NCBI RefSeq assembly: GCF_000023865.1
Contig: NC_013159.1
Location: forward strand, 3,188,001-3,252,000
Direction: 5' to 3'
Source of the DNA: Saccharomonospora viridis DSM 43017
Lineage (GTDB): Bacteria; Actinomycetota; Actinomycetes; Mycobacteriales; Pseudonocardiaceae
DNA: 64,000 nt
Positions 19,511 through 36,422 of the stretch are shown piece by piece (within the stretch, counting starts at the first letter, position 1; each line of letters begins with the position of its first letter). The notes below the pieces were generated by a model. It worked only from the letters and a program-made list of their open reading frames with translations. It was not told the origin of the DNA and searched no databases. The position numbers and the translations under genes were made by a program.

Positions 19511-20553
19511 ACCGTCCCCTGTGGTCCGTGTCCGTCGAACAGTCCCTCGGGTTGTGAGGAGCCGACGACATTGTTGCGGAATCGCTGTGCGCCGGGGTCC
19601 GTGCCGATCAACGCGTCGAACGGTTCGTTGCCGGTGACGGTGTTCCACTCGAAGGAGTTGTCCACCGAGTCGGAACCGCCCCAGTCCGCCGAACTCGCGA
19701 GCACCAGGGCCCCCGGCATCACCGACGGGCCGGAAGGACGGTTGTCGTACACACGGTTGCCCACCACCGCGACCCGCTCGACCCCGATGGCGGCGATGCC
19801 CACCCCGGAGATCGGCGGCCCCGCGGCCCCGAGAGCGTCCGGGGCGTCACCACCCGCGGCGAGGGTGTTGCCGAAGACCTCGTTGTCGGCCACCAGGCAG
19901 TCCCGCACCCCGCCCGGCAGCTCCCCTTCATAGGTCTGGTGCAGCAGGAGGATGCCCGCCGCGTTGCCGTGACAGCGGTTGCGCAACACGCGCACGCGAC
20001 TGGAGTTGTCCACGAACACGCCGAACGCGTTCGCAGAACAGTCGCTCTCGGACACGACCGCCTCGGCCTCGGAACAGAACGCGAACGCGATGCCGGCGTA
20101 CTGACTCCCACTCGCGCGGCAGCGCCGCACCGTCAGCCCACCGGACTCCCGCAGATACAGTCCCCACACCAGGTTGGCATCGGCTTCGACGTCATCCAAC
20201 CGCACGTCCGTGCCACTGTGCACGTACACGCCCGCACCGCTGAACCCGCGTACCGTCAGGCCCTCGAGCACCACGTCCGACACCGCGTGGACCGCTATGC
20301 CGCTGACCACGCCCTCGGGGGCGTCGTGCAACGGCGGGATCGTCGTCGGCGCCACCGGACCGGGGACGATCACCGTGCGTCCCGCACCCGCCCCCACCAG
20401 CCGCACCCCCGGCGTGGTGATGGAGAGACTGCCCTCGTACGTGCCCTCGGCGAGCCGCAGCACCGTTCCCGGTTCGGCGTCGTCGAGCACCGCCTGCAGG
20501 GACTCACCCGGGACCACGGACACCTCGACACGTGTGTCGGCCACGGAACTCAT
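19507..20553 (-). CDS. Right-handed parallel beta-helix protein
   Basis: A 348-residue protein of repeating short beta strands with evenly spaced Asn, Val and Gly, typical of pectate-lyase/NosD-type beta-helices (GVRLVGAGAGRTVIVPG, then many VLEGLTVRGFSGAGVYVHSG-like coils). It has no signal peptide, so it is probably cytoplasmic. The ATG has AAGGAG five bases upstream and overlaps the preceding stop. Its role in a polyketide cluster is unknown. Sugar handling, a scaffold or ring closure are only guesses. Confidence 0.8.
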   Translation of the reverse strand: MSSVADTRVEVSVVPGESLQAVLDDAEPGTVLRLAEGTYEGSLSITTPGVRLVGAGAGRTVIVPGPVAPTTIPPLHDAPEGVVSGIAVHAVSDVVLEGLTVRGFSGAGVYVHSGTDVRLDDVEADANLVWGLYLRESGGLTVRRCRASGSQYAGIAFAFCSEAEAVVSESDCSANAFGVFVDNSSRVRVLRNRCHGNAAGILLLHQTYEGELPGGVRDCLVADNEVFGNTLAAGGDAPDALGAAGPPISGVGIAAIGVERVAVVGNRVYDNRPSGPSVMPGALVLASSADWGGSDSVDNSFEWNTVTGNEPFDALIGTDPGAQRFRNNVVGSSQPEGLFDGHGPQGTV

Positions 20554-21041
20554 GAGGACTCCTTCGCAGAGATCGTGACGAGTATGGCAAGGGCGACGAT
20601 CACCTCGTGGCGACGTCCCCAACGGGCGGCACCGACCACCGACGTCTCACCGGGGTCGCCCGCTCCCGACCGGTGCAGCACCGCCGCACGGCTGGCACCG
20701 CGCACGGCATAGGTCCGGCTCTCGGTCAGTTCGACACCGATGGCCGTGGCGATGCCGGGCACCGCGTCGGTCAACAATCGCGCGACCGCGGCGGGTGGTT
20801 CCCCGTCCCGATGCACGAAGTCGTGCCAGGAGAACCCCGACGGCCGTCCACCCACGGCCTTGACGAGACTCTCCTTCACCGCGACGGTGGCCGCGATCGA
20901 AATATCGTCTCCAGTGGACAGATCGTGTTCGTCGGCGGCGACGACATGACGGGTGTACACAGCGCCGTTTCGCCTCACCGCCCCGGCGACCCGGCGCAGA
21001 TCCAGGACGTCGACCCCGAACAGCACCGGAGCCGACTTCAC
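20550..21041 (-). CDS. AcpS-like 4'-phosphopantetheinyl transferase
   Basis: A 163-residue AcpS-type protein. It has the metal-binding GVDVLDLRR at residues 9-17 and the helix VAVKESLVKAVGG with the conserved Glu and Lys. A C-terminal RWGRRHEVIVALAIL segment corresponds to the terminal strand of the family. It would convert the cluster's apo-ACP to holo-ACP. The GTG start overlaps the previous stop. A second, more divergent AcpS-like gene lies 1.6 kb upstream in the same operon. Confidence 0.75.
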   Translation of the reverse strand: MKSAPVLFGVDVLDLRRVAGAVRRNGAVYTRHVVAADEHDLSTGDDISIAATVAVKESLVKAVGGRPSGFSWHDFVHRDGEPPAAVARLLTDAVPGIATAIGVELTESRTYAVRGASRAAVLHRSGAGDPGETSVVGAARWGRRHEVIVALAILVTISAKESS

Positions 21042-21820
21042 CCGGCGACCCGTTCGAGGAACGCGAGCAACCGCCCGGTGTAGTCCTCGGCCCGCTCCAC
21101 CATCGGGATGTGGCCGCAGTCGTCCACCGCGACGAACTCGGTACCCGGATACCGGGGCACCAGGTCCTGCCAGGCCTCCACCGGCGTCATCCGGTCGTAC
21201 CGGCCCCACACGTACAGCGACGGGCACCGCACCTTGTCCAATCCGGACTGAACTCGGTACGTGCGTGTGGCTCGCAGGCTGCGCGCCATCGCCACCATGG
21301 CCGGGCCTGTGGCGAGCAGCTCGCCGGTCTGCCGGATCTGCTCCTCGGTGAACAACGGCTCGCCGTGGAACAACGCGCTCAACATGCGTTCCCGGAACTG
21401 ATCGGTCGCGAGCTTGACGCTGCCCCGACGGTCCATGCTCAGCCCCACGTCCGGCTCGGTGCTGAGCCCGGGCGCGCCGCTGACCACGATGCCGCGGACC
21501 CGATCGGGGAACCGGCCGGCCAGGTCGATGGCCACCAGCCCGCCCAGCGAGTTCGCGCAGACGACGACCTCGTCCGCCCCTACGGCGTCACACGCCTCCA
21601 GCAACGCGTCACCGAGCCGTTCGATCGAACCCGCCACCTTCGGCTCGACCGCGCAGATCGCCTCGTTCGTACGCAACACCGGCCATCCCGCCCGTGACAG
21701 CGCGTCGAACGGCTGGTCCCAGATCCATTTGCCCGCGAACAACGCGGACATGAAGGCGACGAGAGGACGCTCCCCCGGAGTGTTGTGGTGTTCGACGGTG
21801 AAGACGGTCAACGGACTCAC
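21038..21820 (-). CDS. Alpha/beta hydrolase
   Basis: A 260-residue alpha/beta hydrolase with a Ser nucleophile in CANSLGG (Ser91), an acid in WGRYDRMTP and a His in DCGHIPMVE. The motif is a variant of GxSxG (A-N-S-L-G). It could release the polyketide as a thioesterase or hydrolyse an ester. No dedicated thioesterase is otherwise visible in the cluster. The GTG start overlaps the upstream stop (GTGA). Confidence 0.85.
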   Translation of the reverse strand: MSPLTVFTVEHHNTPGERPLVAFMSALFAGKWIWDQPFDALSRAGWPVLRTNEAICAVEPKVAGSIERLGDALLEACDAVGADEVVVCANSLGGLVAIDLAGRFPDRVRGIVVSGAPGLSTEPDVGLSMDRRGSVKLATDQFRERMLSALFHGEPLFTEEQIRQTGELLATGPAMVAMARSLRATRTYRVQSGLDKVRCPSLYVWGRYDRMTPVEAWQDLVPRYPGTEFVAVDDCGHIPMVERAEDYTGRLLAFLERVAG

Positions 21821-22689
21821 TCCTCGTTTCGGGAGAACAACGGGCTGGGCGGGGGTGTCCACCCGCAGTCGCACGACGCACCGTCGACGACGGAGACCAT
21901 CACGGCACAGGACGGGCAGCGCAGGTGGAGACTGTCCCGTTCGAGCTGCCACACGCTGGTGTAGGCGCCGGTGCACAACCCACCCCGGAAGAACCGACGC
22001 ATGGCGCGCTGATGCGGTCGGCCGTGGACGGCCCGGACGGAATCGAGCGTGTCGAACGCGCTGAGCGTGTACTTCCGGTTGCCGATCTCGAAGATCGCCG
22101 CGCCGAGGAAGCCCTTGCTCCCGCGCAACGACTTGACCACTTCGGTGCTCAACAGCGTGACGTCGGCACCCTCCTCCTCGTCCCGGACGTCGAGCCAGGT
22201 CAGGGTGAACGCGCCGGGCCTCGTGGCACGGTCGGTGCCGGAGCGGAAGCTGGTGCCGTACTCCAGGTCCGGGGTGGGCGGGGGCAGGAACCGGGCGTCG
22301 TGTCCGAGGGCCTCGGCGAAGGCGAGCCGGTCGTAGTGGCGCCGCACGTGGAGGCCGTCGTCGGCCGACGTGAGCACGTCACAACCGCGCACCCCGCGCA
22401 CGGCGGACTGCCCACCGGTGACCGGGATTCCGAGGTAGGAAGCGCGGTGGGGGGCCGTGAGTGTCCACGTGAGCACGGCGGTCGACCCGGCGTCGGCGAT
22501 GTCCTCCACCTCCAGTTCCCACGTGGGGAACCGCCGGAAGGTGGCGTCGAGATGGTCCGCCAATTCCGCCCCCGCCACCGGATCACCGGTGTCGGGATCG
22601 GCGAAGGAGGTCACGAGGTCGGCCACCCGTCGGGCGTCGCCGGCCTGCCATGCCGACACCCACTGTCGGGCCGTCTCCGTCAGAGTCAT
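21817..22689 (-). CDS. SnoaL-like / monooxygenase-like / zinc-ribbon fusion protein
   Basis: A 290-residue three-part protein. Residues 1-115 look like an NTF2/SnoaL-like cone, the fold of polyketide cyclases and hydratases (TARQWVSAWQAGDARRVADL). Residues about 135-240 resemble an antibiotic-biosynthesis-monooxygenase or DUF3291-type ferredoxin fold (TLLSTEVVKSLRGSKGFLGA). The last 40 residues hold a four-Cys zinc ribbon (CPSC...CDCGW). It overlaps both neighbours by four bases. The likely role is cyclisation or oxidation of the chain, by fold only. Confidence 0.6.
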   Translation of the reverse strand: MTLTETARQWVSAWQAGDARRVADLVTSFADPDTGDPVAGAELADHLDATFRRFPTWELEVEDIADAGSTAVLTWTLTAPHRASYLGIPVTGGQSAVRGVRGCDVLTSADDGLHVRRHYDRLAFAEALGHDARFLPPPTPDLEYGTSFRSGTDRATRPGAFTLTWLDVRDEEEGADVTLLSTEVVKSLRGSKGFLGAAIFEIGNRKYTLSAFDTLDSVRAVHGRPHQRAMRRFFRGGLCTGAYTSVWQLERDSLHLRCPSCAVMVSVVDGASCDCGWTPPPSPLFSRNEE

Positions 22690-23132
22690 CCGTTCCCCTC
22701 GTCCTCGTCCTCGGGCAACGACGCGGAGACCAACGCGACGGCGAGCGCCACTCCCGCGTCATGGCTGATCGAGACCCCGACCCGCGTACCCGGGCGCACC
22801 CGGTCGCGCAGGACACCGTGCAACCGCACCCCCGGCGGGTGGCCGTGCAGACACGCTGCCGTGCGGTCGCAGATCGCCGACGGGCGGGGCAGGATCTCCA
22901 CCTCGCAAAGCCGCCCGGCCGACGGGTCCTCGTCCTCACCCAGCAGCCGCACGACCGCGTACTTGGCCGCGAGCCGGCCGGCCCAGTGCTGGACGGTCCG
23001 CCCCCGGCCGGAACGCATCCGTTCGGCGTGCGTGAACACCGCCTCCAGTGGCAGCGGCGCCACCAGCGCGGCCGGATCGCGCACCCCGCAGAAGGGCACG
23101 GCCGCACTGCCCCACGAACTTCGGGACGTCAT
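22686..23132 (-). CDS. Divergent AcpS-like protein
   Basis: A 148-residue protein with the middle and end of the AcpS fold: VFTHAERM, the helix AGRLAAKYAVVRLLG with the conserved Lys, and SISHDAGVALAVAL. It lacks the N-terminal GxDxxxxxR metal motif. It may be a specialised phosphopantetheinyl transferase, an inactive partner of the other AcpS-like protein, or an ACP-binding factor. It has an ATGA overlap with the malonyltransferase gene. Confidence 0.65.
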   Translation of the reverse strand: MTSRSSWGSAAVPFCGVRDPAALVAPLPLEAVFTHAERMRSGRGRTVQHWAGRLAAKYAVVRLLGEDEDPSAGRLCEVEILPRPSAICDRTAACLHGHPPGVRLHGVLRDRVRPGTRVGVSISHDAGVALAVALVSASLPEDEDEGNG

Positions 23133-24034
23133 GTCGCGGCCATCCCCGCCAACGTGCGCAAGGAGGCCGGCGCCGACATGCTGACGCAGCGCACGCCCTC
23201 GGTGCGGAGCATCCCGGTGAGCGCCTTGCTGTCCCCCACCTCGACACAGTGGTCCACACCGGACAGTTCCCGCATGGTCCGCACCCACCTGACCCTGCCG
23301 GTCAACTGTTCGATGAGGGCGTCGACGATCGTGTCGAGCTCGGTGGTCGGCTCCCCGGTGACGTTGGGGATCACGGGGACCTCCGGCGGCCGCATGGGAG
23401 CGTCCCGCACCGCCGCGGCCCAATCGTCCACCGCGCCCGCCATCAACGGCGAGTGGAACGCGTTGCTCACCTTGAGCGGCACGATCTTGCGGACCTCGTC
23501 CGCCATGGCCGTGAAACGCTCGAGCGCCGCCGTCGAACCCGAGACGACGATCTGATCCGCCGTGTTCTCCAGCCCGACCACGAGCGGCTCACCCGGCGCG
23601 GCGGCCTGCTGGACGAGCTGTTCGACCCGCTCCACCGGCAGTCCCATGACCGAGGCCATGGCGCCGGTCTCGGTGAGCGCGGACATCAACCGGGCCCGCA
23701 CCCCCACCAACCGGAACGTCGTGTCGACGTCCATGACCCCGGCCGCGCACAACGCGCTGAGCTCGCCGACACTGTGCCCGGCCACGATGTCCGGCCGGTA
23801 TCCCTTCGCCCGGAGCACTGCCAACGCGGCGAGGTTGCACGCGGTCACGGCGGGTTGGGCGTGCGCGGTGTCCACCAGTCTCGCCAGCGGACCCCGCGCA
23901 CACAACGGACCGACCGGTTCCGGGAGCAGCTCGTCCGCCCGCCGCAGGACGGCGCCGCCGTCGGGATCGCGCCGCAACCACCCGCCCATGCCGACACGGA
24001 CCGTGCCCTGGCCGGGGAACACGAAACCGATCAA
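23129..24034 (-). CDS. [Acyl-carrier-protein] S-malonyltransferase
   Basis: A 301-residue FabD-type acyltransferase that loads malonyl groups from CoA onto the cluster ACP. The N-terminal motif is FVFPGQG, the nucleophile Ser88 lies in AGHSVGELSAL and the catalytic His in NAFHSPLM. I chose a TTG start at 24034, with GGGAGG five bases upstream, because it gives the exact FabD N-terminus. No other start lies close enough. Type II clusters often borrow the housekeeping FabD, so a dedicated copy is notable. Confidence 0.92.
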   Translation of the reverse strand: MIGFVFPGQGTVRVGMGGWLRRDPDGGAVLRRADELLPEPVGPLCARGPLARLVDTAHAQPAVTACNLAALAVLRAKGYRPDIVAGHSVGELSALCAAGVMDVDTTFRLVGVRARLMSALTETGAMASVMGLPVERVEQLVQQAAAPGEPLVVGLENTADQIVVSGSTAALERFTAMADEVRKIVPLKVSNAFHSPLMAGAVDDWAAAVRDAPMRPPEVPVIPNVTGEPTTELDTIVDALIEQLTGRVRWVRTMRELSGVDHCVEVGDSKALTGMLRTEGVRCVSMSAPASLRTLAGMAAT

Positions 24035-24048
24035 CTCGTCCTCCCGCG

Positions 24049-24930
24049 TCAGAGCCTGCGCCTGCGGGTCGGCATGGTCGCGGGCTTCTCGGTGCCGAGG
24101 AAACCCGTCAGCAGCTTCGTGGTCAGCTCCGGTTGGTCGAGCGGGATCCAGTGGCTGGAGTCCTCGACCCGCTCGTAACGCCAGGGCCCCTTCACGAACT
24201 TCGCCGAGCCGGTCATGCCCTCCTCCAACATGGCCTGGTCCCCTGTGGACCACACACCGAGCGTCGGAGCCAACACGGGCGGGAAGTTCCGGTCGGCCCG
24301 CAACTCTGCCGCGGGCGAACGGTTGGCCCGGTAGTAGTTCAGCGCCGCCGTCAACGCCCCCGGCTTCGCAAGCTCCCGCGGATAACGCTGGTAGTCGCCC
24401 TCGGTTCCCATGATCTCCTTGAACAGCCGCCAGCCGTTGCGCCGCAACAACTGCTCGCTGACCCCGGGGAACTGGTAGAAGAGCATGTACCAGCTCGCCT
24501 TGCGTTGCTCGATGCTCGGCGTGGAGAAGACCCCGGGGTGTCCGACCGAGAACACCGCGAGGTGGTCGACCCGACGGGGCATGAGGAACGCGTACATCCA
24601 CGCGATCGCCGCGCCCCAGTCGTGCCCGACGAGGTGGACCTTCGAGAACCCGAGATGTTGGGTGAGTCCCACGATGTCGTTGACGAGCACGCGCATCTCG
24701 TAGGCCTCGATCTCCTGCGGCTTGCTCGACTCACCGAAACCCCGCAGGTCGGGCGCGATGACCCGGAATCCTGCCTCCACCAGGGGGTCGATCTGGTGAC
24801 GCCACAGGTAGTGGGAGTCGGGGAAGCCGTGCAACAGCACGACCGGGTCCCCCTCCCCCTTGTCGACGTAGGCCAGGTCCACCCCGTTGACATGGGCCGA
24901 ATCGGTGATCAATGTCTGTCTGGCGGTCAT
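24049..24930 (-). CDS. Epoxide-hydrolase-like alpha/beta hydrolase
   Basis: A 293-residue hydrolase with an Asp nucleophile (Asp104 in VGHDWGAA), the HGFPDS oxyanion motif at residues 34-39, a cap domain and a His in SSHWIPLDQP. Asp in place of Ser points to epoxide hydrolases or dehalogenases. It would act on an epoxide made by one of the flavoenzymes in the cluster. The ATG overlaps the stop of the FAD oxidoreductase gene. Confidence 0.85.
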   Translation of the reverse strand: MTARQTLITDSAHVNGVDLAYVDKGEGDPVVLLHGFPDSHYLWRHQIDPLVEAGFRVIAPDLRGFGESSKPQEIEAYEMRVLVNDIVGLTQHLGFSKVHLVGHDWGAAIAWMYAFLMPRRVDHLAVFSVGHPGVFSTPSIEQRKASWYMLFYQFPGVSEQLLRRNGWRLFKEIMGTEGDYQRYPRELAKPGALTAALNYYRANRSPAAELRADRNFPPVLAPTLGVWSTGDQAMLEEGMTGSAKFVKGPWRYERVEDSSHWIPLDQPELTTKLLTGFLGTEKPATMPTRRRRL

Positions 24931-26171
24931 GCGGTCTCCCTGAACAGGCGCTCCACGAAAAACTCGCTGAAGCCGAACTCCGGAACTTGCTCCGGCGGAA
25001 CCATGTTGAGCAGGCCGAGTACCTGAGCCGCCGGGTTCTCGGCCATGATCCTGCGGGCACGACGCCGACGTTCCGTGGCTTCAGGACCGAACTCGCACTG
25101 CAGCTTGGAAATCACCGACGCACCGAACACGAGCCGTCGCATCCGGAACTCACGTTCGGTCAGGTACGGCTCGAAGACCTCGGGTGACCAGTCGCTGTTG
25201 TTCAACAGGATGTCGCACACGATGCGCACGTCCCGAAGCGCACAGGACAGTCCCGTGCCGAGCACCGTGTCGGCGTTACCCGCCTCGTCACCGACGAGCA
25301 CCGCACCCTCGGTGACGATGGGCTGCTCCGGACGCAACGTCATCGACGGCCACACCTGCAGCGGACCGATCGGCTTGGCGGCGGCGTAGACGGACTTGCC
25401 ACCGTCCGGAAGCGACTCCAGCTCGAAGTCGGCGAGGAACCGCTCCACCCCGCCCTCACCCCGATAGCGGTGCTTGTTGTGCGTGGGGAAGTTGATGTAC
25501 AGCCGCGCCCGACCGTCGCCCTGGGGGAAGACCATGAAGTTCCGCTCCCCCTCGGTGCCCATCGCCTGCACGTCCATGGGCCAGTCATCGAGCCCCTCGA
25601 CCCGCACACCGCCACCCCAGTGGTGCACGGAGGTGCGCATCGACACGCCGATCTGCCTTCCGACCCGGCCTCCTCGGCCGGTGGCGCCGATGATCATCCG
25701 GGCCCGGACCGTGTGCAACTCACCGCCGAGCCGGTAGCGCACCTGGGGTTCCGGCCCCGCCGTCACCTCGCAGCGCTGCGCACCCATGACGACCTTCGCG
25801 CCGGATTCCGCCGCCTGTTGGGCGATCGACTCGCACACCTGGTGATGCGGGAATCCCAGCGGACCGCCGACACCGGGGATGAAGTGGGTCATGTCGACCG
25901 TCTCCGCCTCGTGCGGAGCCACCACCTCGTCCCACTGTGTCCACTCGCGGATCTCCCAGCCACCGCCGAACGCGATGGCCTCGTCTATGCCGAGCAGCTG
26001 CGCTTCCCGCATACCCCACGGGGCGAACCACTCGCCACGGACGATGTCGGTGTAGCGCTCCTGCTTCTCCAGCATCACCACCGACATCCCGTTCGCGCTC
26101 AGATACGCGGCGGCCGCCGTGCCCGCGAACCCCCCACCCACGATGACGACGTCGGTGTCCTCGACGCTCAT
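24927..26171 (-). CDS. FAD-dependent oxidoreductase (PHBH/geranylgeranyl-reductase-like)
   Basis: A 414-residue flavoprotein with an N-terminal dinucleotide motif VVIVGGGFAGTAAAAYL, a middle IIGATGRGGRVGRQIG and a second FAD motif VLVGDEAGNADTVLGTG. It lacks the WxWxIP motif of flavin halogenases. It may be a monooxygenase or a reductase of polyene bonds. It overlaps the nitroreductase and hydrolase genes by four bases on each side, so the three are probably made together. Confidence 0.82.
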   Translation of the reverse strand: MSVEDTDVVIVGGGFAGTAAAAYLSANGMSVVMLEKQERYTDIVRGEWFAPWGMREAQLLGIDEAIAFGGGWEIREWTQWDEVVAPHEAETVDMTHFIPGVGGPLGFPHHQVCESIAQQAAESGAKVVMGAQRCEVTAGPEPQVRYRLGGELHTVRARMIIGATGRGGRVGRQIGVSMRTSVHHWGGGVRVEGLDDWPMDVQAMGTEGERNFMVFPQGDGRARLYINFPTHNKHRYRGEGGVERFLADFELESLPDGGKSVYAAAKPIGPLQVWPSMTLRPEQPIVTEGAVLVGDEAGNADTVLGTGLSCALRDVRIVCDILLNNSDWSPEVFEPYLTEREFRMRRLVFGASVISKLQCEFGPEATERRRRARRIMAENPAAQVLGLLNMVPPEQVPEFGFSEFFVERLFRETA

Positions 26172-26893
26172 GCCTGCCACCTCTCCCAACTCGTGCGAGA
26201 TCGGGCCGGGTGTCGCTTGGCGGGCTTGAAGTCTGTGCCGATCGTGTACGCCACGGGCACCATGCACACCTGCGTCACCCCGGCCGGGATGCCCAACAGC
26301 TCGCCGACGCGCCGCTCGAACGGGAGGTGCATGCACGTGATCGTGCTGCCCAGTCCCCGGCTGCGGAGCGCGAGCTGAAAAGACCAGATCGCGGGGAAGA
26401 TCGAGCCGTAGAAGATGCTGGCCCGCATGGCACCGATGCGGACGTCGTCGCGTGCCGTCTCCGCGTTGCCGGGCCGGGTACGCAACCACTCGGCGTCGAT
26501 CGCGCCGATGTCCGGTGGCCTACCCAGTACGCACGGGATGACGAGCACCGGCACCCTCGCGATGTCCTTGGCCAATGTCGCCGCGGAGTCGTTGTTGCGC
26601 TGCGCCTGCGGGCTTCTGCGTCGTCTGCCCGAGGCGGTCCAGACCTCTTTCTGGTGGAAGCGCCACGAGACGTGGAACAGCTCCGCGAGCTCCTTTTTCA
26701 CCGAATCCTCGGTGATGACGACCCATCGCCAGTTCTGCTGGTTGTTGGCCGTGGGCGCCTGCACGGCGACCTCGAGCGCCTCCTCGATCACCTCGCGGGG
26801 CACGGGGCGCTCGAAGTCCAATCTGCGCCGCACCGACCTCGTCGTGGTGAGCAGGCGATCGGTCTCACGCACGTCGAACGGTGTCGCCGTCAT
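26168..26893 (-). CDS. Nitroreductase-family FMN oxidoreductase
   Basis: A 241-residue FMN-binding protein with RSVRRRLDFERPVP and APTANNQQNWRWVVI in the N-terminal third and RSRGLGSTITCMHLP near residue 185. This is the pattern of NADH:FMN oxidoreductases in the nitroreductase superfamily. In natural-product clusters such enzymes reduce enones, oxidise or aromatise rings, or supply reduced flavin. It overlaps the ketosynthase stop (ATGA). Confidence 0.85.
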   Translation of the reverse strand: MTATPFDVRETDRLLTTTRSVRRRLDFERPVPREVIEEALEVAVQAPTANNQQNWRWVVITEDSVKKELAELFHVSWRFHQKEVWTASGRRRRSPQAQRNNDSAATLAKDIARVPVLVIPCVLGRPPDIGAIDAEWLRTRPGNAETARDDVRIGAMRASIFYGSIFPAIWSFQLALRSRGLGSTITCMHLPFERRVGELLGIPAGVTQVCMVPVAYTIGTDFKPAKRHPARSRTSWERWQA

Positions 26894-29154
26894 ACGGCCC
26901 CCAGCAGCGTCGCACCGCGCACGGACCCCGGCGCGGAGGTGAGCACCAACACCGACCGCGCCGCGGTGAGCGCGTCGGGTTTGGTGAGGTAGTCCTCGAC
27001 TTTTCCGACCCGAGGCCGCGCCAGGTCCACGAGCGCGGGCGCCACGCCGTCACGGATCGCCAACGCCCCCAGCGCGAGGTTCAAAGCCCCCGTCGCCGAG
27101 CGCAGGTCTCCGGTCAGTCCCACAGACGCGGTGAGTGGCCCGCCCAAAGCGGCCGCCAGCACGGCGCGGGCTTCGGGGGTGTCATGCTCCCCGCCCACAG
27201 CCGAACCGACCACCAGGTCGACGTTCTCGGGTCCCACGGTGGCGATACCGCGTTCGACGAGCGCGACCTCGTCACCGCCGAGGTCGGAGCCGTGCGCCGA
27301 ACCCACGATCCGGGCATACGGCACGGCGCCGCGGTTCGCCGCGTGCTCGGCGGACTCCACCACCAGGCACACCGCGCCCGACGCCGTCGCCGCCGTGGGG
27401 GAGTCGGCGTCGTACGGCGTAATCGGGGTCACCGCGTCCCCGCCGTCCAACGCCTCGTCGGCGGCCACCACCAGCACCACGTCGGCCTTGCCGCAGCGGA
27501 TGGCCTCCACCGCGCAGTCCAGGGCGATCGACGCCGAGGCGTTACCGTTGCAGATCGTGGTCGTGACACCGCGCAGTCCCAGTGTCTGGCACACGGCGCC
27601 ACCGGTCGCGTTCAGCACCACGTTCGAAAAGCTCAACACCGCGGGCTTGTTGGGGTTGGCGAGCACGCTTTCGTCGAAGCCCAACGTGCTCTCCACCGAT
27701 CCCGCCGCGGTGGCGAAGATGACACCCACCTTCTCCAACGCCGCCCTGCCCAGCTTCAACCGCGCGTCCTCCCACGCCAAGCGGGAGGCGGCGATCGCCA
27801 TGCGCGACAAGCGGTTCATGTGGCGCCACAGCGACCGCGGCGCGAACGAACGACCGTCGAGCACGGGTTCGACGCCGATCTCCGCACCGCCCTCGGTCAG
27901 CGCCTGCGTGAGTCGGTCGACGCCGATGCCAAGTCCCAGCACCGGGCCGATCCCGGTGACGACCGTGTCCGCCGTGGGCAATTCGTCGTAGTCGCGGACC
28001 GGTCCGGGCTTTTTGAGCACGAGCGAGGCGTTGTTGCCACCGAACGCGTAGTTGTTGGACACGACGACGTCCATCGGCAGCGACCGAGCCGTGTTCGGCA
28101 CGAAGTCCAAAGTGGCCGCCGAGATCGCCTCGTCGGTGAAGCCGACCGTGGGCGGCGCGACACCGTGTCGGAGCGCGAGCACGCTGGCCACCGCCTCCAC
28201 GGCCCCCGCCGCACCCAACGTGTGTCCGATGAAGGACTTGATGCTGCTGGTCGGCACCTGCGCGGCGCGTTCGCCGAAGACGGTGCGCATGACCTTCTTC
28301 TCCATCGCGTCGTTGGCGGGTGTGCCGGTGCCGTGTCCGTTGACGTAGTCGACGTCGTCGGCAGACAGGCCCGCATCGGCCAGCGCCCGACGGACCGCGC
28401 TGACCCCGCCCCGCCCCGTGGGGTCCGGGGCGGTGGCGTGATAGGCGTCGGCCGACAACCCGTAACCCGCGACCTCGGCGAGGGGTTCCACGCCTCGGGC
28501 CAGCGCCCGGTCGAGCGGTTCCACGACCAGGAACGCCGCGCCCTCACCCAGGTTCAGCCCGTCGGACCGGCTGTACGGCGCGCACGGCTGCGAGCTGAGC
28601 GCCTGCAGCCCCGCGAAACCCGCGTACGTGCCGAACAACAGGGGGTCCACCCCACCGGCCAACACGACGTCCGCCTCACCGGTGAGGATCTTGTCCTTGG
28701 CGAGGCCGACGGCGTTGCCCCCGGCGGCACACGCCGTCGACACGAGGATGCGCGGTCCGCCCATGCCGAGGCGGGTCGCCACCGTGTCGGCGGTGGCGTG
28801 CATCGGCTGGTAAGCACCCTTGCCGTCGGGGGTGGCCTGGCATTTACCCAGGACCAACCCGAACCGATCGGTGGGCAGGTCACCGAGGCCGGCGTGCGCC
28901 AGAGCCTGACGCGCCGCCACCAACGCCAGTCGGGCCGTCCGGTCCAGCGAACGGTCCTCCTCGGGCAACTGCCCGTCGATCCACTCGTCGGGGACCTGCC
29001 CGGCGAAACGAGCCTCGAACGCGGAGAACCGCTCGTCATGCACCGCGGTGATGCCCGACTCGCCCGCCAGCAACCGCTGCCAGAACTCGTCGGCGTCACG
29101 ACCCACCGCGCAGATCACCCCGACACCTGTGATGACCACAGGGCGCAGCACCAT
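26890..29154 (-). CDS. Fused ketosynthase and chain-length-factor-like protein
   Basis: A 754-residue protein with two thiolase-fold halves. Residues 1-385 are an intact condensing enzyme, with Cys142 in STACAAGG, His274 in NGHGTGTP and Lys306/His311 in SSIKSFIGHTLG. Residues about 398-754 are a second ketosynthase fold without the triad. By hand alignment Asn538 takes the Cys position (a Cys lies three residues earlier), Ser651 takes the first His and Asp683 the second (GLTGDLRSATGA). This is the arrangement of a type II KS-alpha/CLF heterodimer made as one chain. With ACP, MAT, KR and DH genes beside it, it should build a reduced or polyene chain. Confidence 0.9.
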   Translation of the reverse strand: MVLRPVVITGVGVICAVGRDADEFWQRLLAGESGITAVHDERFSAFEARFAGQVPDEWIDGQLPEEDRSLDRTARLALVAARQALAHAGLGDLPTDRFGLVLGKCQATPDGKGAYQPMHATADTVATRLGMGGPRILVSTACAAGGNAVGLAKDKILTGEADVVLAGGVDPLLFGTYAGFAGLQALSSQPCAPYSRSDGLNLGEGAAFLVVEPLDRALARGVEPLAEVAGYGLSADAYHATAPDPTGRGGVSAVRRALADAGLSADDVDYVNGHGTGTPANDAMEKKVMRTVFGERAAQVPTSSIKSFIGHTLGAAGAVEAVASVLALRHGVAPPTVGFTDEAISAATLDFVPNTARSLPMDVVVSNNYAFGGNNASLVLKKPGPVRDYDELPTADTVVTGIGPVLGLGIGVDRLTQALTEGGAEIGVEPVLDGRSFAPRSLWRHMNRLSRMAIAASRLAWEDARLKLGRAALEKVGVIFATAAGSVESTLGFDESVLANPNKPAVLSFSNVVLNATGGAVCQTLGLRGVTTTICNGNASASIALDCAVEAIRCGKADVVLVVAADEALDGGDAVTPITPYDADSPTAATASGAVCLVVESAEHAANRGAVPYARIVGSAHGSDLGGDEVALVERGIATVGPENVDLVVGSAVGGEHDTPEARAVLAAALGGPLTASVGLTGDLRSATGALNLALGALAIRDGVAPALVDLARPRVGKVEDYLTKPDALTAARSVLVLTSAPGSVRGATLLGAV

Positions 29155-29181: not shown

Positions 29182-30261
29182 TCAGATGATCGGGGTGCTC
29201 CAGCTCTTCGGCGTGATGTACGGGCTCGTCAACGTGGTCACCTCGGCGTCACCGACCGACAGGGTCAGCCCGGCGGCCGCCACATCGGGTTCGACCCTGG
29301 CCAGGCCCAGCGGGGCGTCGAGAGCGATGCTGCGAACGGCGTGGACGACCTCGCCGACCCGCTCCCCGCCGATCGTCACCGGTGTTCCGGGTTCGGGCAC
29401 CGACTCCCCGCCGGAGAAGCCGATCGTGCGCCGCTTCGCGGGCGCGTTGAACGCGGCCAGCACGGCGTCCCTGCCGAGGAAGTCCTCCTTGGTGATGTCC
29501 ACCAACCAGTTCGCGCCCATCTCCACGATGTCGGCGCTACCCGCCTCGTGCCGCACGACCGGTTGCCGGACTTCGAGCATCGCCAGTTCCAACGCCTCGT
29601 AGCCCGCGGGAGCGGCTTCCGCCACGGCCTTGTGCCACAACTTCTCGGCCGAGTCCGCCGACACGATCACCTTGTAGCCGTACTCCGCGGTCGACCCCGT
29701 ACGCGCGAAGACGATCTCCTCGCCGTCCCATGTCGTGTCGACCACGGACTCGAACGGCAACGCGGCCAGTTCCGCGTCGATGAGCCTGCCGACCACACCC
29801 CACGCATAGGGGCCTTCCAAGGCGAACAACGCGAGTTCGCCGGTGCGGTCGGTGATCGTCACGTCGTCACCGGCCTGCGCACGCAGGTGCTCCAACAGTC
29901 GGTCACCGAAGCCGACGGAGCTCTCCAGCAGCAGGCCGTCCTCCCTGCCCCACACGACGACCTGGTCCACGACGGTTCCCTCGGCGTCGAGCACGAGACT
30001 GGTCATGCACCGTTCGTCGGTGAGGTACTCGACGTCCCGGGCGAGCACCCGCTGCGCGTACTCGGTCGCGCCGTCACCCGTGACCTCGATCAGCCGGACG
30101 CCCGAGAGGTCGAACACGGCGGCCCGGTTGCGGATCGCCTCGTACTCCTGCTCCAGGGTCGAGTAACGCAAGGCGACGTCCGCCTCGCCGACGGTGCCGT
30201 ACACCGTCCCTTCGGGATGCACGGAACGCAGTGGTGACGTCAGGTTTGGCGTGTCATTCAC
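29182..30261 (-). CDS. GcvT-like (aminomethyltransferase-fold) protein
   Basis: A 359-residue protein with the GcvT/YgfZ fold: AVFDLSGVRLIEVTGDGATEYAQRVLARDV near residues 50-80 and LDITKEDFLGRDA-like segments (VDITKEDFLGRDAVL) in the second half, then a C-terminal barrel. The family transfers or removes one-carbon units on tetrahydrofolate. It lies between the ketosynthase and dehydratase genes. Glycine cleavage is unlikely, as no partner genes are present. O- or N-demethylation, C1 transfer or a non-folate role are open. The GTG start at 30261 is seven bases after the dehydratase stop. Confidence 0.75.
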   Translation of the reverse strand: MNDTPNLTSPLRSVHPEGTVYGTVGEADVALRYSTLEQEYEAIRNRAAVFDLSGVRLIEVTGDGATEYAQRVLARDVEYLTDERCMTSLVLDAEGTVVDQVVVWGREDGLLLESSVGFGDRLLEHLRAQAGDDVTITDRTGELALFALEGPYAWGVVGRLIDAELAALPFESVVDTTWDGEEIVFARTGSTAEYGYKVIVSADSAEKLWHKAVAEAAPAGYEALELAMLEVRQPVVRHEAGSADIVEMGANWLVDITKEDFLGRDAVLAAFNAPAKRRTIGFSGGESVPEPGTPVTIGGERVGEVVHAVRSIALDAPLGLARVEPDVAAAGLTLSVGDAEVTTLTSPYITPKSWSTPII

Positions 30262-30268
30262 GGGATCT

Positions 30269-30748
30269 TCAGACCTTTCCGTTCGAACTGGTGGCGGCCG
30301 GGTCGGCGATCGTGATCGACCCTTCGGCGACGAGGACGCCGTCCACTCGAGCGTTGACCTTGTACTCGCAGAACCCTCGTCCTCCCGCACTCCGCTCCGA
30401 CGTCAGCAGCAGGGAATCGCCCGGCCGCACTGGGCGTCGGAACCTCATCGAGCGCACTCCGGCCAGATATCCGATGGGACCAGCACCGGCGAGAGCGAAG
30501 ACCACTCCGGACAGTTGTGCCAGTGCTTCGACCACCAACACGCCGGGGAACACGGCGGCGGTCGGGAAATGTCCCTGAAACCACGGTTCCGCGGCGGTGA
30601 CGTTCTTGACCCCGACGGCCCGGACCCCGGGCTCCGCCCGCTCGACCCGGTCGAGCAGCAGCATCGGCCACCGGTGCGGCAGGATCTCCCGGATCCGGTC
30701 GTTGTCCAGGTCCGTCACCACGGACGCCGGTTCGCTCGTCGTCGTCAT
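30269..30748 (-). CDS. FabZ-like 3-hydroxyacyl-ACP dehydratase
   Basis: A 159-residue hot-dog-fold dehydratase. The signatures are LPHRWPMLLLDRV at residues 24-36, His60 in QGHFP and Glu74 in VVEALAQ, the catalytic pair of FabZ. It removes water from the ketoreduced chain to give an alkene. No enoyl reductase is visible in the operon, so double bonds may be kept. The ATG at 30748 overlaps the ACP stop. Confidence 0.92.
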   Translation of the reverse strand: MTTTSEPASVVTDLDNDRIREILPHRWPMLLLDRVERAEPGVRAVGVKNVTAAEPWFQGHFPTAAVFPGVLVVEALAQLSGVVFALAGAGPIGYLAGVRSMRFRRPVRPGDSLLLTSERSAGGRGFCEYKVNARVDGVLVAEGSITIADPAATSSNGKV

Positions 30749-31065
30749 ACCGAGCCGCCGACGGTGGGCTGCGCGGGCTCCGTCTTCGGCAGGTCCGGAT
30801 TGACGTACTCGGCCAGCCGCGACACGGAACCGAACACCGACATGTCGCTGTCGTAGAGCGCCACACCGAACTCGGCCTCGATGGCGACGTAGAGTTCGAG
30901 CACGTCGAGGCTGTCGAGTTCGAGACCCCGCCCGAACAGCGGCTGGTCGTCGGTGATCCACTCGGGTTCGATGGGCAGGTCGAGACGCGAGACGATCATC
31001 TTCTTGATCTGGGAGCAGGTCTGCTGCCGTGCTGCCGCGGCGGCACGGATTTCGTCGATGGTCAC
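30745..31065 (-). CDS. Acyl carrier protein
   Basis: A 106-residue ACP with the phosphopantetheine attachment Ser52 in LELDSLDVLELYVAIE. It is longer than housekeeping AcpP because of N- and C-terminal tails (the last 15 residues are Pro-rich). It is the only carrier protein in the cluster and is flanked by the KR and DH genes. It should carry the growing chain of the fused KS/CLF. Confidence 0.93.
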   Translation of the reverse strand: MTIDEIRAAAAARQQTCSQIKKMIVSRLDLPIEPEWITDDQPLFGRGLELDSLDVLELYVAIEAEFGVALYDSDMSVFGSVSRLAEYVNPDLPKTEPAQPTVGGSV

Positions 31066-31090: not shown

Positions 31091-31837
31091 TCAGCCGAGC
31101 CCGCCGCCGTTGGCGACGAAAATCTCGCTGGTGATGTAGGAAGCCCGATCAGAGGCGAGGAAGGTCACCAGATGCGCGATCTCCTCGGGCCGTCCCATCC
31201 GCCCGAGGCGGATACGGGAGGTGTAGTTCTCCCGCAGTTTCTTGGGGATCATCCTGGTCATGTCCGTCTCGACGAAGCCGGGCGCGACCACGTTGACCCG
31301 GACCCCGTAGGGGGCGGCCTCGTAGGACAGTGCCTTGCTGAACGCGATGATCGCTCCCTTGGACGCGACGTAGTTGGTCTGTCCCGGGAAACCGCCGTCG
31401 AGCCCACTGCTCGAACTGAGGGTCACGATGGCCCCGCGGCGCTGGTGCTGCATGATGCGCAACGCCTCGCGACAGGCGAGGAACGTGCCCTTCATGTTGA
31501 TGTCCATGGTCTCCGTGAACAGATCGCTGCTCATCGCCACCAGGTGTTTGTCCCGCGTGACCCCCGCGCTGGTGACGAGGACGTCGAGCCTGCCGTGTTC
31601 GGAACGCAGCGACCGGAACATCTCGCGGACGGCTGCTTCGTCGGTGACGTCGGCCTGGGCGAGCGACGCCGAGCCGCCGTTCGCCTCGATCTGCGACACG
31701 AGTTCCTTGGCCTGGTCCTCCGAACGGGAGTAGTTGATCACTACGTGGTTCCCGTGGGCGGCGAGGTCGAGCGCGACCGCCCGACCGATACCCCGGGACC
31801 CACCAGTGACCAGTGCGACCGAGCCTGCTGCGAACAT
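31091..31837 (-). CDS. 3-oxoacyl-ACP reductase (FabG-type SDR)
   Basis: A 248-residue short-chain dehydrogenase. The NADP motif is TGGSRGIG near residue 15, the catalytic Ser lies in SSSSGLDG, and YVASK supplies Tyr and Lys. The C-terminus is typical of FabG. It is the first gene of the 17-gene operon. I chose the ATG at 31837 with a TGGAG site; the GTG at 31849 overlaps that site. It reduces the beta-keto group after each condensation. Confidence 0.93.
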   Translation of the reverse strand: MFAAGSVALVTGGSRGIGRAVALDLAAHGNHVVINYSRSEDQAKELVSQIEANGGSASLAQADVTDEAAVREMFRSLRSEHGRLDVLVTSAGVTRDKHLVAMSSDLFTETMDINMKGTFLACREALRIMQHQRRGAIVTLSSSSGLDGGFPGQTNYVASKGAIIAFSKALSYEAAPYGVRVNVVAPGFVETDMTRMIPKKLRENYTSRIRLGRMGRPEEIAHLVTFLASDRASYITSEIFVANGGGLG

Positions 31838-31979
31838 CCGTGACTCCACAATGGTTTCGGCGCTGTCGAACCGCGCCCGCCGATGTGCTCGGCCACGGTA
31901 CTGAATCGACCTTTCACGGACTTATCACGCGAATATCAGCTCCTTGACCGGGCTTCTCCCGGTGCTCCACGCTGGGCGC
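31838..31979. promoter_or_regulatory. Divergent promoter region of the polyketide operon and the monooxygenase
   Basis: This 142-bp gap separates two divergently read genes and must hold the promoter of the 15.6-kb operon. It contains an AT-rich stretch (around 31915-31945), but I could not assign -10/-35 boxes. It lacks the CCCCTA motif found at the sugar promoters. Confidence 0.5.
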
Positions 31980-33611
31980 ATGGCTGACATCGAGGTGGAC
32001 GTCCTCATCGTCGGCGGAGGGCCCGTCGGCCTCACCGCGTCACTGGAGTGCTCCCGACACGGATTGACCTCGTTGTTGGTCGAACGCCACGAAGGCACGT
32101 CGATCTTCCCCAAGGCACGGCTCGTGTCCACGCGCACCATGGAACTGGTGCGTTCCTGGGGACTGCAGGACGAGGTGGAACGACTGGGACTGCCCAGAGA
32201 GGACAGTCTCGCCGTCGGGGTGGGCAGTTCGCTCACGGCCGACGACTTCCACCGGGAGGTCGCTCCGATCGAGGAGGACGCCCCGCAAAGCCCCACCTAC
32301 ACCTACATCTGCGCCCAGGACAAGTTCGAGGTCGTCCTCAAGCGCATGGCCGAGTCGATGCCGGGGGCCGACGTCCGTTTCGCCACGGTGATGCGGTCAC
32401 TGACGCAGGACGCCGACGGCGTCAGCGCGGTCGTGGAATCGGCGTCGGGCACGGACACGGTCCGCGCCTCCTACGTGGTGGCAGCCGACGGTGCCCGCAG
32501 CGGTATCCGACAGCAGCTGGGCATCGGCATGGAGGGACCACCACCGCTGGGACACATGATCAGCATCATGTTCGACGCCGACCTCCTCCCGCTGCTGCGC
32601 GACCGGATGTGCGCGCTCTACTTCCTGCGCAGCTCCATCCCGTGCGCGGTCGAGGCCGTCGACAACCAGCGTCGCTGGATCGTCCAAACCGGTTACGACC
32701 CCGAGGAGGGCGGCAGCGCGGCCGACTTCACCCCGGAATTCTGCGTGCGCATCGTGCGGGAGGCCGTCGGTGTGCCGGATTTGGACGTTGAGCTCGTGGG
32801 CATCATGCCGTGGCTGCAACAGGCGGTGACGGCGGAACGGTTCCGCGACGGGCGGATCTTCCTCGCCGGGGACGCGGCCCACGTCTCCACCCCGCAGGGC
32901 GGTTTCGGCATGAACTGCGGTATCCAGGACTCCCACAACCTGGTGTGGAAGCTCGCGGCGGTCCTGAAGGGACTCGCGGGCGAGGAACTGCTCGACACCT
33001 ATTCCGCCGAACGGCACCCCATCGGCCAACGCACGGTCGCCGAAAGCCTCGCCAACGCCTACATCACCTTCCGGATGATGGAGGGTGAGCTGACGATGAA
33101 GGAGGCCATCACGCTGCAGGCCGGCAGGCGGTGCAGTGAGGGTCTGGTGCTCGGCTTCCACTACGACTCGGCCGCGGTCATCCCGGACGGGACCCCGCCT
33201 CCCGAACCCGACGACCCGTATCGCACCTACGTGCCCACGGCACGGCCGGGACACCGGGCTCCGCACGTGGTCGTCAACCGCAACGGCACCCCCATGTCCA
33301 CACTCGACCTGATGGGAACCGGTTTCACGCTGTTCACCCCGGACGGCAGTGGCTGGGCCCAGGCGGCCAAGGAAGCCCACGCGCGCACCGGTGTCCACGT
33401 GGTGCCCATCGAGATCTCCCCGGACGGGAACGGGACCAGTCCGATCGTCTCGTCGCAGTGGGCCGAGACCTACGGCGTCGGCCCCACCGGGGCGGTGCTG
33501 ATCCGGCCCGACGGACACGTCGCGTGGCGCATTGCCGAGTGGTCGACCGACGCCTCCGCGGCCGACACGCTGGTGACCGTGCTGGACACCGTCCTCATGC
33601 GGGCACGGTAG
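31980..33611 (+). CDS. FAD-dependent aromatic hydroxylase-type monooxygenase
   Basis: A 543-residue class A flavin monooxygenase. The FAD motif VLIVGGGPVGL is at residues 8-18, the DG motif is VVAADGARSGIRQQLG and the GD motif IFLAGDAAHVSTPQGGFGMN. A C-terminal thioredoxin-like domain follows (about residues 400-543), as in polyketide hydroxylases such as PgaE. I chose the ATG at 31980. Such enzymes hydroxylate, epoxidise or cleave polyketide rings, an epoxide being a possible substrate for the epoxide-hydrolase-like protein. Its end overlaps the convergent SARP gene by 17 bases. Confidence 0.9.
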   Translation: MADIEVDVLIVGGGPVGLTASLECSRHGLTSLLVERHEGTSIFPKARLVSTRTMELVRSWGLQDEVERLGLPREDSLAVGVGSSLTADDFHREVAPIEEDAPQSPTYTYICAQDKFEVVLKRMAESMPGADVRFATVMRSLTQDADGVSAVVESASGTDTVRASYVVAADGARSGIRQQLGIGMEGPPPLGHMISIMFDADLLPLLRDRMCALYFLRSSIPCAVEAVDNQRRWIVQTGYDPEEGGSAADFTPEFCVRIVREAVGVPDLDVELVGIMPWLQQAVTAERFRDGRIFLAGDAAHVSTPQGGFGMNCGIQDSHNLVWKLAAVLKGLAGEELLDTYSAERHPIGQRTVAESLANAYITFRMMEGELTMKEAITLQAGRRCSEGLVLGFHYDSAAVIPDGTPPPEPDDPYRTYVPTARPGHRAPHVVVNRNGTPMSTLDLMGTGFTLFTPDGSGWAQAAKEAHARTGVHVVPIEISPDGNGTSPIVSSQWAETYGVGPTGAVLIRPDGHVAWRIAEWSTDASAADTLVTVLDTVLMRAR

Positions 33612-35085
33612 GCCATTGCGCCCGGCAGACCGGGGACGTGGACGTGTCGGCTCCGGCCGCGGCACGTCGAAGCGACAGCGGGTTCCCACCCGCCCGCTGC
33701 GTGATGCGCAGCGCTTCCCGGGGACGCCGATGCAACCAGTCCTCACCCAACAGCAGGGTGAGCAGTTCCCGCGACTCCCCCGGCGGCAACGGTCCGAGGA
33801 CACACCGCCGCGCCCCCTGCCGGACGACCAGGTCGTGCAACGGGTCGCGGCTGGTGATCACCACTCGGCAGTCGGCGCATCCGGGCAGAAGCGGCAACAC
33901 CTGGGCCGCGTCGGCGGCGTCGTCGAGCACCACGAGCAGTCGTTTCCGGGCGATCGTACTGCGGTAGAGCGCGGCTTTCCCGTCCACATCGTCTGGGACC
34001 GCCTGCGGCGGCACTCCGAGAGCGTGCAGGAACCGGTCGAGGACCACCGACGTGGACACCGGCCGACCCCGGGCGTCCCGCAGGGTGGCGAAGAGCTGCC
34101 CGGATGGGAACCGTTCCCGCCGTTGATGTGCCCAGTGCAGCGCGAGCGCCGTCTTGCCGACCTCCTCCGGTCCGCTCAACACCATCGTCCCGGGAACGTC
34201 CGGACGGTCGGCGAGTGCGTCGTCGAGAGCCCGTAACTCCCGGCGACGGCCGGCGAAGGGCATCGGCTGCCGGGGTAGTTGGGAGGGCACGGTGGCGCGC
34301 ATCGGTTCCGCAGCCGGGGACGACGTGGCCGGTGACAACGCGGGGGAGTCCCGCAGGATCCGTTCGTGGAGCTCGCGCAGCTCGGGCCCCGGTTCGAGAC
34401 CGACCTGCTCCACCAACACCCTGCGGGCTTCCTGATAGGTCCGCAACGCCTCGGCACGTCGCCCCGACCGGTACTGGGCCAGCATGAGCTGGGCCCGGGC
34501 GCGTTCCCGCAGTGGCTGTTCGGCCACGACGGCGGACAGTTCGGTGACGATCCGGTCGTGCCTGCCGAGCTGGAGTTCCAGATCCGCACACGTCTCCACC
34601 GCGTCGAGCCGGGCCTCCTGCAGCCGGTGCGCCTCGGCACGCATCCCGGGCAGGTTCTCGAACGGCACGCCCCGCCACAGCCCCAACGCTTCCCGCAGCA
34701 ACGTCACGGCGACGAGCCGGTCACCCGCAGCGGCTTTCGCCGCGGCCCGCGCTGTCAGGGAGCCGAACCGAAGCCAGTCCGCGGTCTGTTCGTCCAGGCG
34801 GATGAGGTAGCCGGGACTGGCGGTGTCGATGGCTTTGTCCAGTCCCACGACGCTGAGCGCACGACGTAACCGGGACACGCAGATGGCCACCTGGCTTCGA
34901 GCGCTGGCGGGTGGTTCCCCGCCCCAGATGGCACCGATCAACCGGTCGACGCTGACGACCCGGTTCGCGTCCAGTACGAGACTGGCCAAAACGGCCTGTT
35001 CCCGGGCCCCTCCCGTCCAGATCTCACGCCCGGCCTGGACGACCCGGACGGGGCCCATGATCTGGATCTGTACCGGGCCGGTCAT
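33595..35085 (-). CDS. SARP-family pathway regulator with NB-ARC domain
   Basis: A 496-residue regulator. Residues 1-95 are an OmpR-like winged helix (REQAVLASLVLDANRVVSVD), followed to about residue 245 by the bacterial transcriptional activator domain (LREALGLWRGVPFENLPG). After a Pro-rich linker comes an NTPase domain with Walker A GPEEVGKTALAL and Walker B LLVVLDDA. It lacks the long TPR tail of larger SARPs. The ATG overlaps the glycosyltransferase stop by one base. It probably activates the cluster. Confidence 0.93.
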   Translation of the reverse strand: MTGPVQIQIMGPVRVVQAGREIWTGGAREQAVLASLVLDANRVVSVDRLIGAIWGGEPPASARSQVAICVSRLRRALSVVGLDKAIDTASPGYLIRLDEQTADWLRFGSLTARAAAKAAAGDRLVAVTLLREALGLWRGVPFENLPGMRAEAHRLQEARLDAVETCADLELQLGRHDRIVTELSAVVAEQPLRERARAQLMLAQYRSGRRAEALRTYQEARRVLVEQVGLEPGPELRELHERILRDSPALSPATSSPAAEPMRATVPSQLPRQPMPFAGRRRELRALDDALADRPDVPGTMVLSGPEEVGKTALALHWAHQRRERFPSGQLFATLRDARGRPVSTSVVLDRFLHALGVPPQAVPDDVDGKAALYRSTIARKRLLVVLDDAADAAQVLPLLPGCADCRVVITSRDPLHDLVVRQGARRCVLGPLPPGESRELLTLLLGEDWLHRRPREALRITQRAGGNPLSLRRAAAGADTSTSPVCRAQWPTVPA

Positions 35086-36299: not shown

Positions 36300-36412
36300 T
36301 GTCGACTCCCACCAGGACTGAACGGCGGCTCGGAACACGGCGATCACGGGGATCACCTGCTGCGGCTGCCGCCGCCACCGTAGAACCCGGCCCCGGTGAT
36401 CGACACCCCTAA

Positions 36413-36422
36413 TCTCCGCTGT
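36413..36422. promoter_or_regulatory. Half-site ACCCCTAATC upstream of the glycosyltransferase
   Basis: This 10-mer is the exact inverse of GATTAGGGGT at 36503-36512 in the same divergent promoter region. It lies 114 bp upstream of the glycosyltransferase start. It is part of the CCCCTA motif set described at 36505 and 39345. Confidence 0.4.

Follow-up and report, generated by a model that had tools for sequence, protein, structure and literature searches.

Does one polypeptide of Saccharomonospora viridis DSM 43017 combine two functions that type II polyketide synthases (PKSs) divide between subunits, and if so, where did the combination come from? In textbook type II polyketide systems the ketosynthase (KS) and the chain length factor (CLF) are the products of two genes. 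We analysed a 64,000-nucleotide stretch (hereafter the window; NCBI RefSeq assembly GCF_000023865.1, contig NC_013159.1, positions 3,188,001 to 3,252,000) of a genome that consists of one contig of 4,308,349 bases, and found that KS and CLF-like halves are not separate proteins here and lie in one frame of 754 codons, the product of which is probably a single-chain type II KS-CLF. The first-pass annotation had recognised both halves in one 754-residue chain without giving a strand; the frame lies on the minus strand, and runs without interruption from an ATG at 29154 to a stop at 26890. A GAGGAG resembling a ribosome-binding site is located upstream of the ATG; at the other end, the stop shares bases with the start of the neighbouring nitroreductase-family gene (ATGA). 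The features of the gene are given below, with residue counts from an alignment of 27 close sequences, including the window protein, to which three relatives from Streptomyces plasmids were added (30 in total).

26890..29154, minus strand: fused KS-CLF gene, 754 amino acids (aa), from the open reading frame and Pfam matches
28000..29154, minus strand: N-terminal half (N-half), residues 1-385, active ketosynthase fold
27967..28014, minus strand: linker, residues 381-396, of near-constant length and drifting sequence
26893..27966, minus strand: C-terminal half (C-half), residues 397-754, CLF-like, triad lost
28729..28731, minus strand: codon of Cys142, the nucleophile; Cys in 27/27 close and 3/3 plasmid relatives
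28333..28335, minus strand: codon of His274, unvarying in 30/30 aligned sequences
28222..28224, minus strand: codon of His311, unvarying in 30/30 aligned sequences
27541..27543, minus strand: codon of Asn538, equivalent to the Cys; Gly 13, Asn 11, Ala 2, Glu 1 of 27
27202..27204, minus strand: codon of Ser651, equivalent to a His; Ala 19, Ser 6, Thr 2 of 27
27106..27108, minus strand: codon of Asp683, equivalent to a His; Asp in 27/27

One catalytic and one degenerate half

The whole protein matched the Pfam families ketoacyl-synt (E 2.4e-49) and Ketoacyl-synt_C (E 1.2e-37), with the best stretches within the N-half, and the C-half by itself matched a fabF model (E 8.3e-22). Cys142, His274 and His311 occupy the triad positions of β-ketoacyl-acyl carrier protein synthase II (KAS II), and the intact triad predicted for the first half was present in all 27 close relatives. 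The replacement of the second triad by Asn538, Ser651 and Asp683, originally read from a hand alignment, was likewise borne out: the aligned Cys position of the second half held a Cys in 0/27 close relatives, and a nearby residue, C535, was constant in 27/27. Asn at position 538 had also been put forward as a further oddity on the grounds that a CLF usually carries Gln there. This argument fails because the position varies within the family, being mostly Gly or Asn, and because the corresponding residues of five aromatic-type reference CLFs are E, G, Q, G and Q; Asn538, present in only 11/27 sequences, was dropped as a family feature with a functional role. The C-half thus conserves a family motif and the absence of the triad, whereas the Asn is not conserved. 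A stretch of 16 alignment columns after residue 107, wholly or almost wholly filled in the three Streptomyces plasmid relatives, is missing from the close family, and we suspect that the acyl pocket of the close family is smaller.

Matches at E≤1e-100 were found in 21/297 family-level genomes, none of them with internal stops; two of these genomes gave the match as two pieces that belong to one frame. A contig scan with six short peptide patterns yielded 22 loci, a set that overlaps with these genomes. Full-length fusions of 67-81% identity over the alignment accounted for 21 of these loci (L032-L052), with representatives in Prauserella, Lentzea, Saccharothrix, Actinokineospora, Actinoalloteichus, Nonomuraea, Streptosporangium and Acrocarpospora, among others; the remaining locus, L053, was a 31% match located in type I PKS-like frames. 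A frameshift or stop hidden between the halves, raised at the outset as a possible undoing of the fusion, is not present: the 21 named relatives read through the junction in one frame. Both halves evolve under purifying selection, with dN/dS values against six relatives of 0.09-0.19 for the N-half and 0.20-0.41 for the C-half, and the fusion is maintained by selection. The 16-residue linker is the least conserved part of the protein (50-62% identity to the six relatives, with a noisy dN/dS of its own), and has the same length in 26/27 close relatives, the remaining one being longer by seven residues. An antisense plus-strand frame of 1118 codons (26881-30237) overlies the gene and is presumably an effect of high GC content; read on the plus strand, 26890-29154 gives this antisense frame only.

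An AlphaFold2 model of the whole chain reached a predicted template modelling score (pTM) of 0.89, and the C-half taken by itself was a full condensing-enzyme fold, in agreement with the proposal that one chain combines a catalytic KS half and a degenerate half of the same fold. The match lists from Foldseek and VIA (the latter with one row per entry) were dominated by FabF/FabB and other KS chains. The best Protein Data Bank (PDB) match over both halves was 6riw, the PfaC KS-CLF didomain of a polyunsaturated fatty acid (PUFA) synthase (Santin et al. 2020, as cited in passages of PMC12895367), with a template modelling (TM) score of 0.78 by query length and 0.64 by target length, a root-mean-square deviation (rmsd) of 6.7 and 19% identity. 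The two halves are therefore predicted to pack as one pseudo-dimer, broadly like PfaC, as the first-pass annotation had anticipated in proposing a structure prediction of the halves as a pseudo-heterodimer.

Distant relatives and the origin of the halves

Single-chain KS-CLF proteins recur in many actinobacteria. Distant ones of 787-794 aa were found in Streptomyces plasmids (L054-L056, L066), where they are annotated merely as 'beta-ketoacyl-[acyl-carrier-protein] synthase family protein'; the three that were aligned share 37-38% identity with the window protein, and at all four loci two discrete KS-type genes and a KSIII gene stand next to the fused gene. A profile built from 21 C-halves was run on 394 class-level genomes; 39 of these contained a total of 40 matches at E≤1e-40. 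Every one of the 18 strongest (E≤2.1e-54) fell in a frame of at least 754 aa that also encodes a KS half ahead of the match; at L083, L084 and L086 one signature was missed by the motif search and the triad was read on longer pieces of the same genes (L096-L098). Two of the 22 weaker matches were inspected: L092 is an ordinary KS with a C-H-H triad, and L093 holds discrete KS-type frames, including one of 831 aa not shown to be fused; the other 20 may include discrete or fused relatives. Nine of ten distant regions (L094-L097, L099-L103), which we labelled type B, encode a discrete KS, dehydratase (DH) and CLF together with KSIII, a ketoreductase (KR), an acyl carrier protein (ACP) and a second DH. 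Type B clusters thus hold two KS-CLF machines side by side, one fused and one discrete. The tenth region, L098 (type C; genome G817, fused gene near 9499), has no other KS within 20 kb and encodes KR, DH, ACP, FabD and a GcvT-like protein (30% identity), as in the window. The types A, B and C and the tree labels 'HR' and 'aromatic' were set by this analysis.

Two trees were built. The more careful one held 53 half-sequences, leaving out L006, L071 and near-copies, and was midpoint-rooted for drawing only; a quick tree of 93 rows was obtained from 102 domains by removing six from L053 (type I PKS), a spurious L002 frame and two L005 copies of the L003 pair. The 'HR' set consisted solely of the discrete pairs beside type B fused genes, with no ishigamide sequence included. 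In the 53-row tree all fused N-halves grouped together (99/95) and so, separately, did all fused C-halves (100/99), with a split into B versus A plus C within each group, and the sampled discrete KS and CLF groups fell elsewhere in this tree, which has no known root. The 93-row tree agreed on the two fused-half groups, with long branches. Since the branching of the N-halves matches that of the C-halves, a single fusion fits, and one old fusion event is likely on this evidence.

The KS/CLF tree called for by the first-pass annotation thus sets the fused halves apart from the discrete KSs and CLFs sampled, and leaves more than one possible placement for the C-half. In approximately unbiased (AU) tests, holding the C-halves with all CLFs was not rejected (p 0.164), nor was holding them with the N-halves, as expected from internal duplication (p 0.358); holding them with the HR CLFs alone gave p 0.036. 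The N-halves, separate from the HR KSs of our own labelling in the free tree, gave p 0.08 when held with them. The C-half may be a decayed tandem duplicate of the KS that became CLF-like by convergence, independently of canonical CLFs. This origin is compatible with a single-chain KS-CLF, and we regard it as a serious possibility at somewhat below even chances: the free tree puts the C-halves in neither of the CLF groups, the grouping with the N-halves survives the AU test and the second half of L098 retains a Cys, whereas the grouping with all CLFs survives as well, and the branches are long and the midpoint root arbitrary. Taken as a whole, we see close to an even chance that the window protein belongs to an anciently fused, free-standing KS-CLF lineage, in which one fusion preceded the split between types A and C (sole KS, GcvT-like partner) and type B (second pair, KSIII), the CLF half possibly arose independently of canonical CLFs and L098 is a surviving intermediate. 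The L098 protein, a KS-KS fusion with a Cys in its second half, may represent a step in the evolution of a CLF.

The gene cluster and a proposed mechanism

The fused gene is part of a series of genes in the same orientation that runs from KR through ACP, DH, the GcvT-like gene, KS-CLF, the nitroreductase-family gene, the flavin adenine dinucleotide (FAD) oxidoreductase, a hydrolase and the acyltransferase onward to an ATP-binding cassette (ABC) exporter. The neighbouring features of the window are as follows.

16222..19648, minus strand: ABC-2 exporter, ATPase and two permeases
19507..20622, minus strand: right-handed beta-helix (NosD-like) protein, listed frame
21038..21976, minus strand: alpha/beta hydrolase, listed frame
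21817..22689, minus strand: SnoaL-like protein
22686..23132, minus strand: AcpS-like phosphopantetheinyl transferase, a weak match (26.5 bits, below cut-off)
23129..24049, minus strand: acyltransferase (Acyl_transf_1), with 36-41% identity to proteins annotated as FabD at the plasmid loci; start not fixed
24049..24930, minus strand: alpha/beta hydrolase
24927..26171, minus strand: FAD-dependent oxidoreductase with similarity to geranylgeranyl reductases (below cut-off); proposed start
26168..26893, minus strand: nitroreductase-family protein, start overlapping the KS-CLF stop
29182..30390, minus strand: GcvT-like protein with a folate-binding aminomethyltransferase fold; listed frame, true start may be further in
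30269..30748, minus strand: DH of FabZ type (NF000582, 143.7 bits, cut-off 113)
30745..31065, minus strand: ACP
31091..31849, minus strand: KR, a FabG-like short-chain dehydrogenase/reductase
31944..33611, plus strand: FAD aromatic-hydroxylase-like monooxygenase
33595..35649, minus strand: AfsR/SARP-type regulator; listed frame overlaps its neighbours, start not fixed
35085..36494, minus strand: MGT-family glycosyltransferase
36575..37684, plus strand: DegT/DnrJ sugar aminotransferase
37779..41583, minus strand: deoxysugar genes (NDP-hexose 2,3-dehydratase, epimerase/reductase, C-methyltransferase)
41613..44213, minus strand: LuxR-type regulator

Discrete KR, DH and ACP genes adjoining the KS-CLF are a trait of highly reducing type II PKSs, and these genes and the acyltransferase are consistent with a reducing type II system. 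A literature search by producer genera matched no known compound to the cluster. Comparison of the 21 named loci over 13-22 kb each, with flanks of 10 kb, showed the fused frame to be the sole KS-bearing frame in every one. KR, ACP, GcvT-like and nitroreductase-like genes were present in 21/21 loci and DH in 20/21; in the exception, L050 (Actinokineospora), no DH match was found at the usual place between the ACP and GcvT-like genes. The acyltransferase, the FAD oxidoreductase, both hydrolases and the SnoaL-like gene were found in 20/21 loci, the sequence of L042 stopping short, and the beta-helix protein was matched in 19/21, L042 and L052 having less DNA on that side. The GcvT-like protein (window 29182-30390), which accompanies the fused KS-CLF at all named loci, does so at L098 also. 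Glycosylation is not universal, because the glycosyltransferase and aminotransferase genes occur in 17/21 loci and are missing from L040, L041, L048 and L052. The 2,3-dehydratase was seen in 11 loci and the C-methyltransferase in five, both counts being limited by the 10-kb flanks.

The cluster is located between prfA (44474-45592) and prmC (15235-16098), so that the prfA-prmC neighbourhood is split, with 14537-16098 of the window on one side and 44474-45592 on the other. Within the genus the gene has a patchy spread, being carried by 3/12 genomes. The prfA-prmC distance is 28-31 kb in these three and 0.08-1.3 kb in eight of the nine genomes without the gene; in the ninth (G062) it is 11.3 kb. 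There the site (L104, G062:C1:3474401-3487800) holds the LuxR gene and genes for a C-methyltransferase, a reductase, a 2,3-dehydratase and an aminotransferase, and nothing in it matched the PKS genes of the cluster. From these distances the cluster looks like one module at one site, and G062 like a case of partial loss or partial gain.

We propose that Cys142 would accept an acyl chain from the ACP of the cluster and that His274 and His311 would drive decarboxylation of malonyl-ACP and condensation. The C-half, itself without chemistry, would close the substrate pocket across the interface and set the chain length or retain the chain until later steps. Between rounds, KR and the FabZ-type DH could act to give a short unsaturated or hydroxylated acyl-ACP. 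Its finishing and release might fall to the hydrolases together with the flavin, GcvT-like and nitroreductase-like enzymes; in most members the product would then be glycosylated with an amino, C-methyl deoxysugar, and the ABC transporter would export it. Fusion would fix a 1:1 stoichiometry and prevent mispairing.

Several observations tell against this picture. No dedicated enoylreductase or adenylation gene was recognised among the scanned neighbour proteins, and of the four loci without sugar genes only L052 has a short flank on that side. The AlphaFold2 alignment had 22 sequences, three of the five models were poor (pLDDT 52.9, 45.0 and 44.3), a single chain was modelled, with no pairing between chains, and the superposition on 6riw is loose by its rmsd and its TM by target length. 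The modelled C-half has 362 aa versus 398-431 for the listed KAS chains; it is shorter, and therefore its role at the pocket may differ from that of a canonical CLF. The C-half may also play a purely structural part. The triad Cys has also not been lost in every member, the second half at L098 reading C-D-H (LATGCASGLS).

The C-half could instead be a cyclisation factor like AmcG of cispentacin biosynthesis, in a system that performs one or a few condensations and in which the second half shapes ring closure. AmcF and AmcG resemble the fused protein in pairing a short KS with a degenerate partner, although they are discrete proteins (PMC10698177, in part), and AmcG is described in passages of the same paper as lacking recognised motifs and some secondary structures of CLFs. 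The N-half matches the AmcF model end to end (2-368 of 369), and both are shorter than KAS II. At 264.8 bits the N-half nevertheless falls short of the AmcF cut-off (325), and it scores higher against general FabF-type models (339.8). The DH, too, is of FabZ type (143.7 bits, cut-off 113) rather than AmcE (60.7 bits, cut-off 140), and an AmcH-like adenylate-forming domain was not found in the 30 frames scanned. In a phylum search the AmcF model matched in 285/296 genomes at E≤0.001 and exceeded its cut-off in 0/296; it finds KSs in general, because 13/14 control genomes match as well. Membership of an AmcF/AmcG system was therefore rejected on the AmcF and AmcE cut-offs, and an AmcG-like role, judged with no AmcG sequence in the comparison, appears unlikely.

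We consider it more doubtful still that the halves do not pair within the chain, the N-halves of two chains forming a homodimeric KS, the C-halves a separate dimer, and the fusion acting only as a tether. Free-standing KAS II enzymes are homodimers, and the single-chain modelling and the loose whole-chain superposition would leave room for this arrangement; against it stand the pTM of the single chain and the PfaC KS-CLF didomain as best PDB match over both halves. An error of sequencing or assembly, or a chance open frame of the kind common in this high-GC DNA (as the long antisense frame illustrates), has next to no probability and was ruled out by the same fusion in 21 named genomes and dN/dS well below 1 in both halves.

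If the protein is a single-chain KS-CLF, it matters because the subunits of type II KS-CLF pairs cannot readily be interchanged: a CLF is generally incompatible with the KS of another system, according to passages of PMC12664062, and AmcG is reported in part of PMC10698177 to be insoluble in the absence of its KS. A natural single-chain version would come with KS and CLF in a set ratio and provide a framework in which CLF halves could be exchanged, so that CLF function could be tested within a single polypeptide. The conserved cluster invites a search for a reduced and, in most cases, glycosylated polyketide, and the L098 protein, with a Cys in both halves, offers a route to studying how a CLF loses catalysis.

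Comparison with known systems

The actinorhodin-type aromatic KS-CLF (PDB 1tqy) is encoded by two genes, whereas the window protein is encoded by one; the same genome also has a separate pair resembling this type (G000:C1:3664972-3667486). Free-standing reducing type II KS and CLF are described as pairs in the relevant passages of PMC9381841 and PMC11446937, and the ishigamide (PDB 6kxd) and cinnamoyl-lipid systems likewise appear in the former as KS-CLF subunit pairs, in contrast to the one chain found here. The fused proteins of Streptomyces plasmids are single chains that fall in the same tree groups as the window protein, and differ from it in sequence (37-38% identity for the three aligned) and in the discrete KS-type and KSIII genes beside them.

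PfaC is alike in carrying KS and CLF in one chain, with similar broad packing in the model. It is described in part of PMC12895367 as performing the final elongation in PUFA synthases. PfaC forms part of a multidomain megasynthase, whereas the window chain terminates after its CLF half and its partners are separate proteins; a PfaA model scored 80.2 bits on the window protein (cut-off 1010), and there is no megasynthase setting of PfaA, PfaB or PfaD type. In the open full-text literature searched, no free-standing fused type II KS-CLF was described, and the papers on didomain KS-CLFs were, by title, all on PUFA synthases. The early suggestion of an unusual subclass of highly reducing type II PKS holds in so far as the fused halves group apart from the sampled discrete KSs and CLFs; it needs qualifying in that the AU tests leave deeper links possible and covalent linkage is not itself novel. 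A covalent KS-CLF is already known from PUFA synthases, and what is new here is a free-standing, conserved single-chain version.

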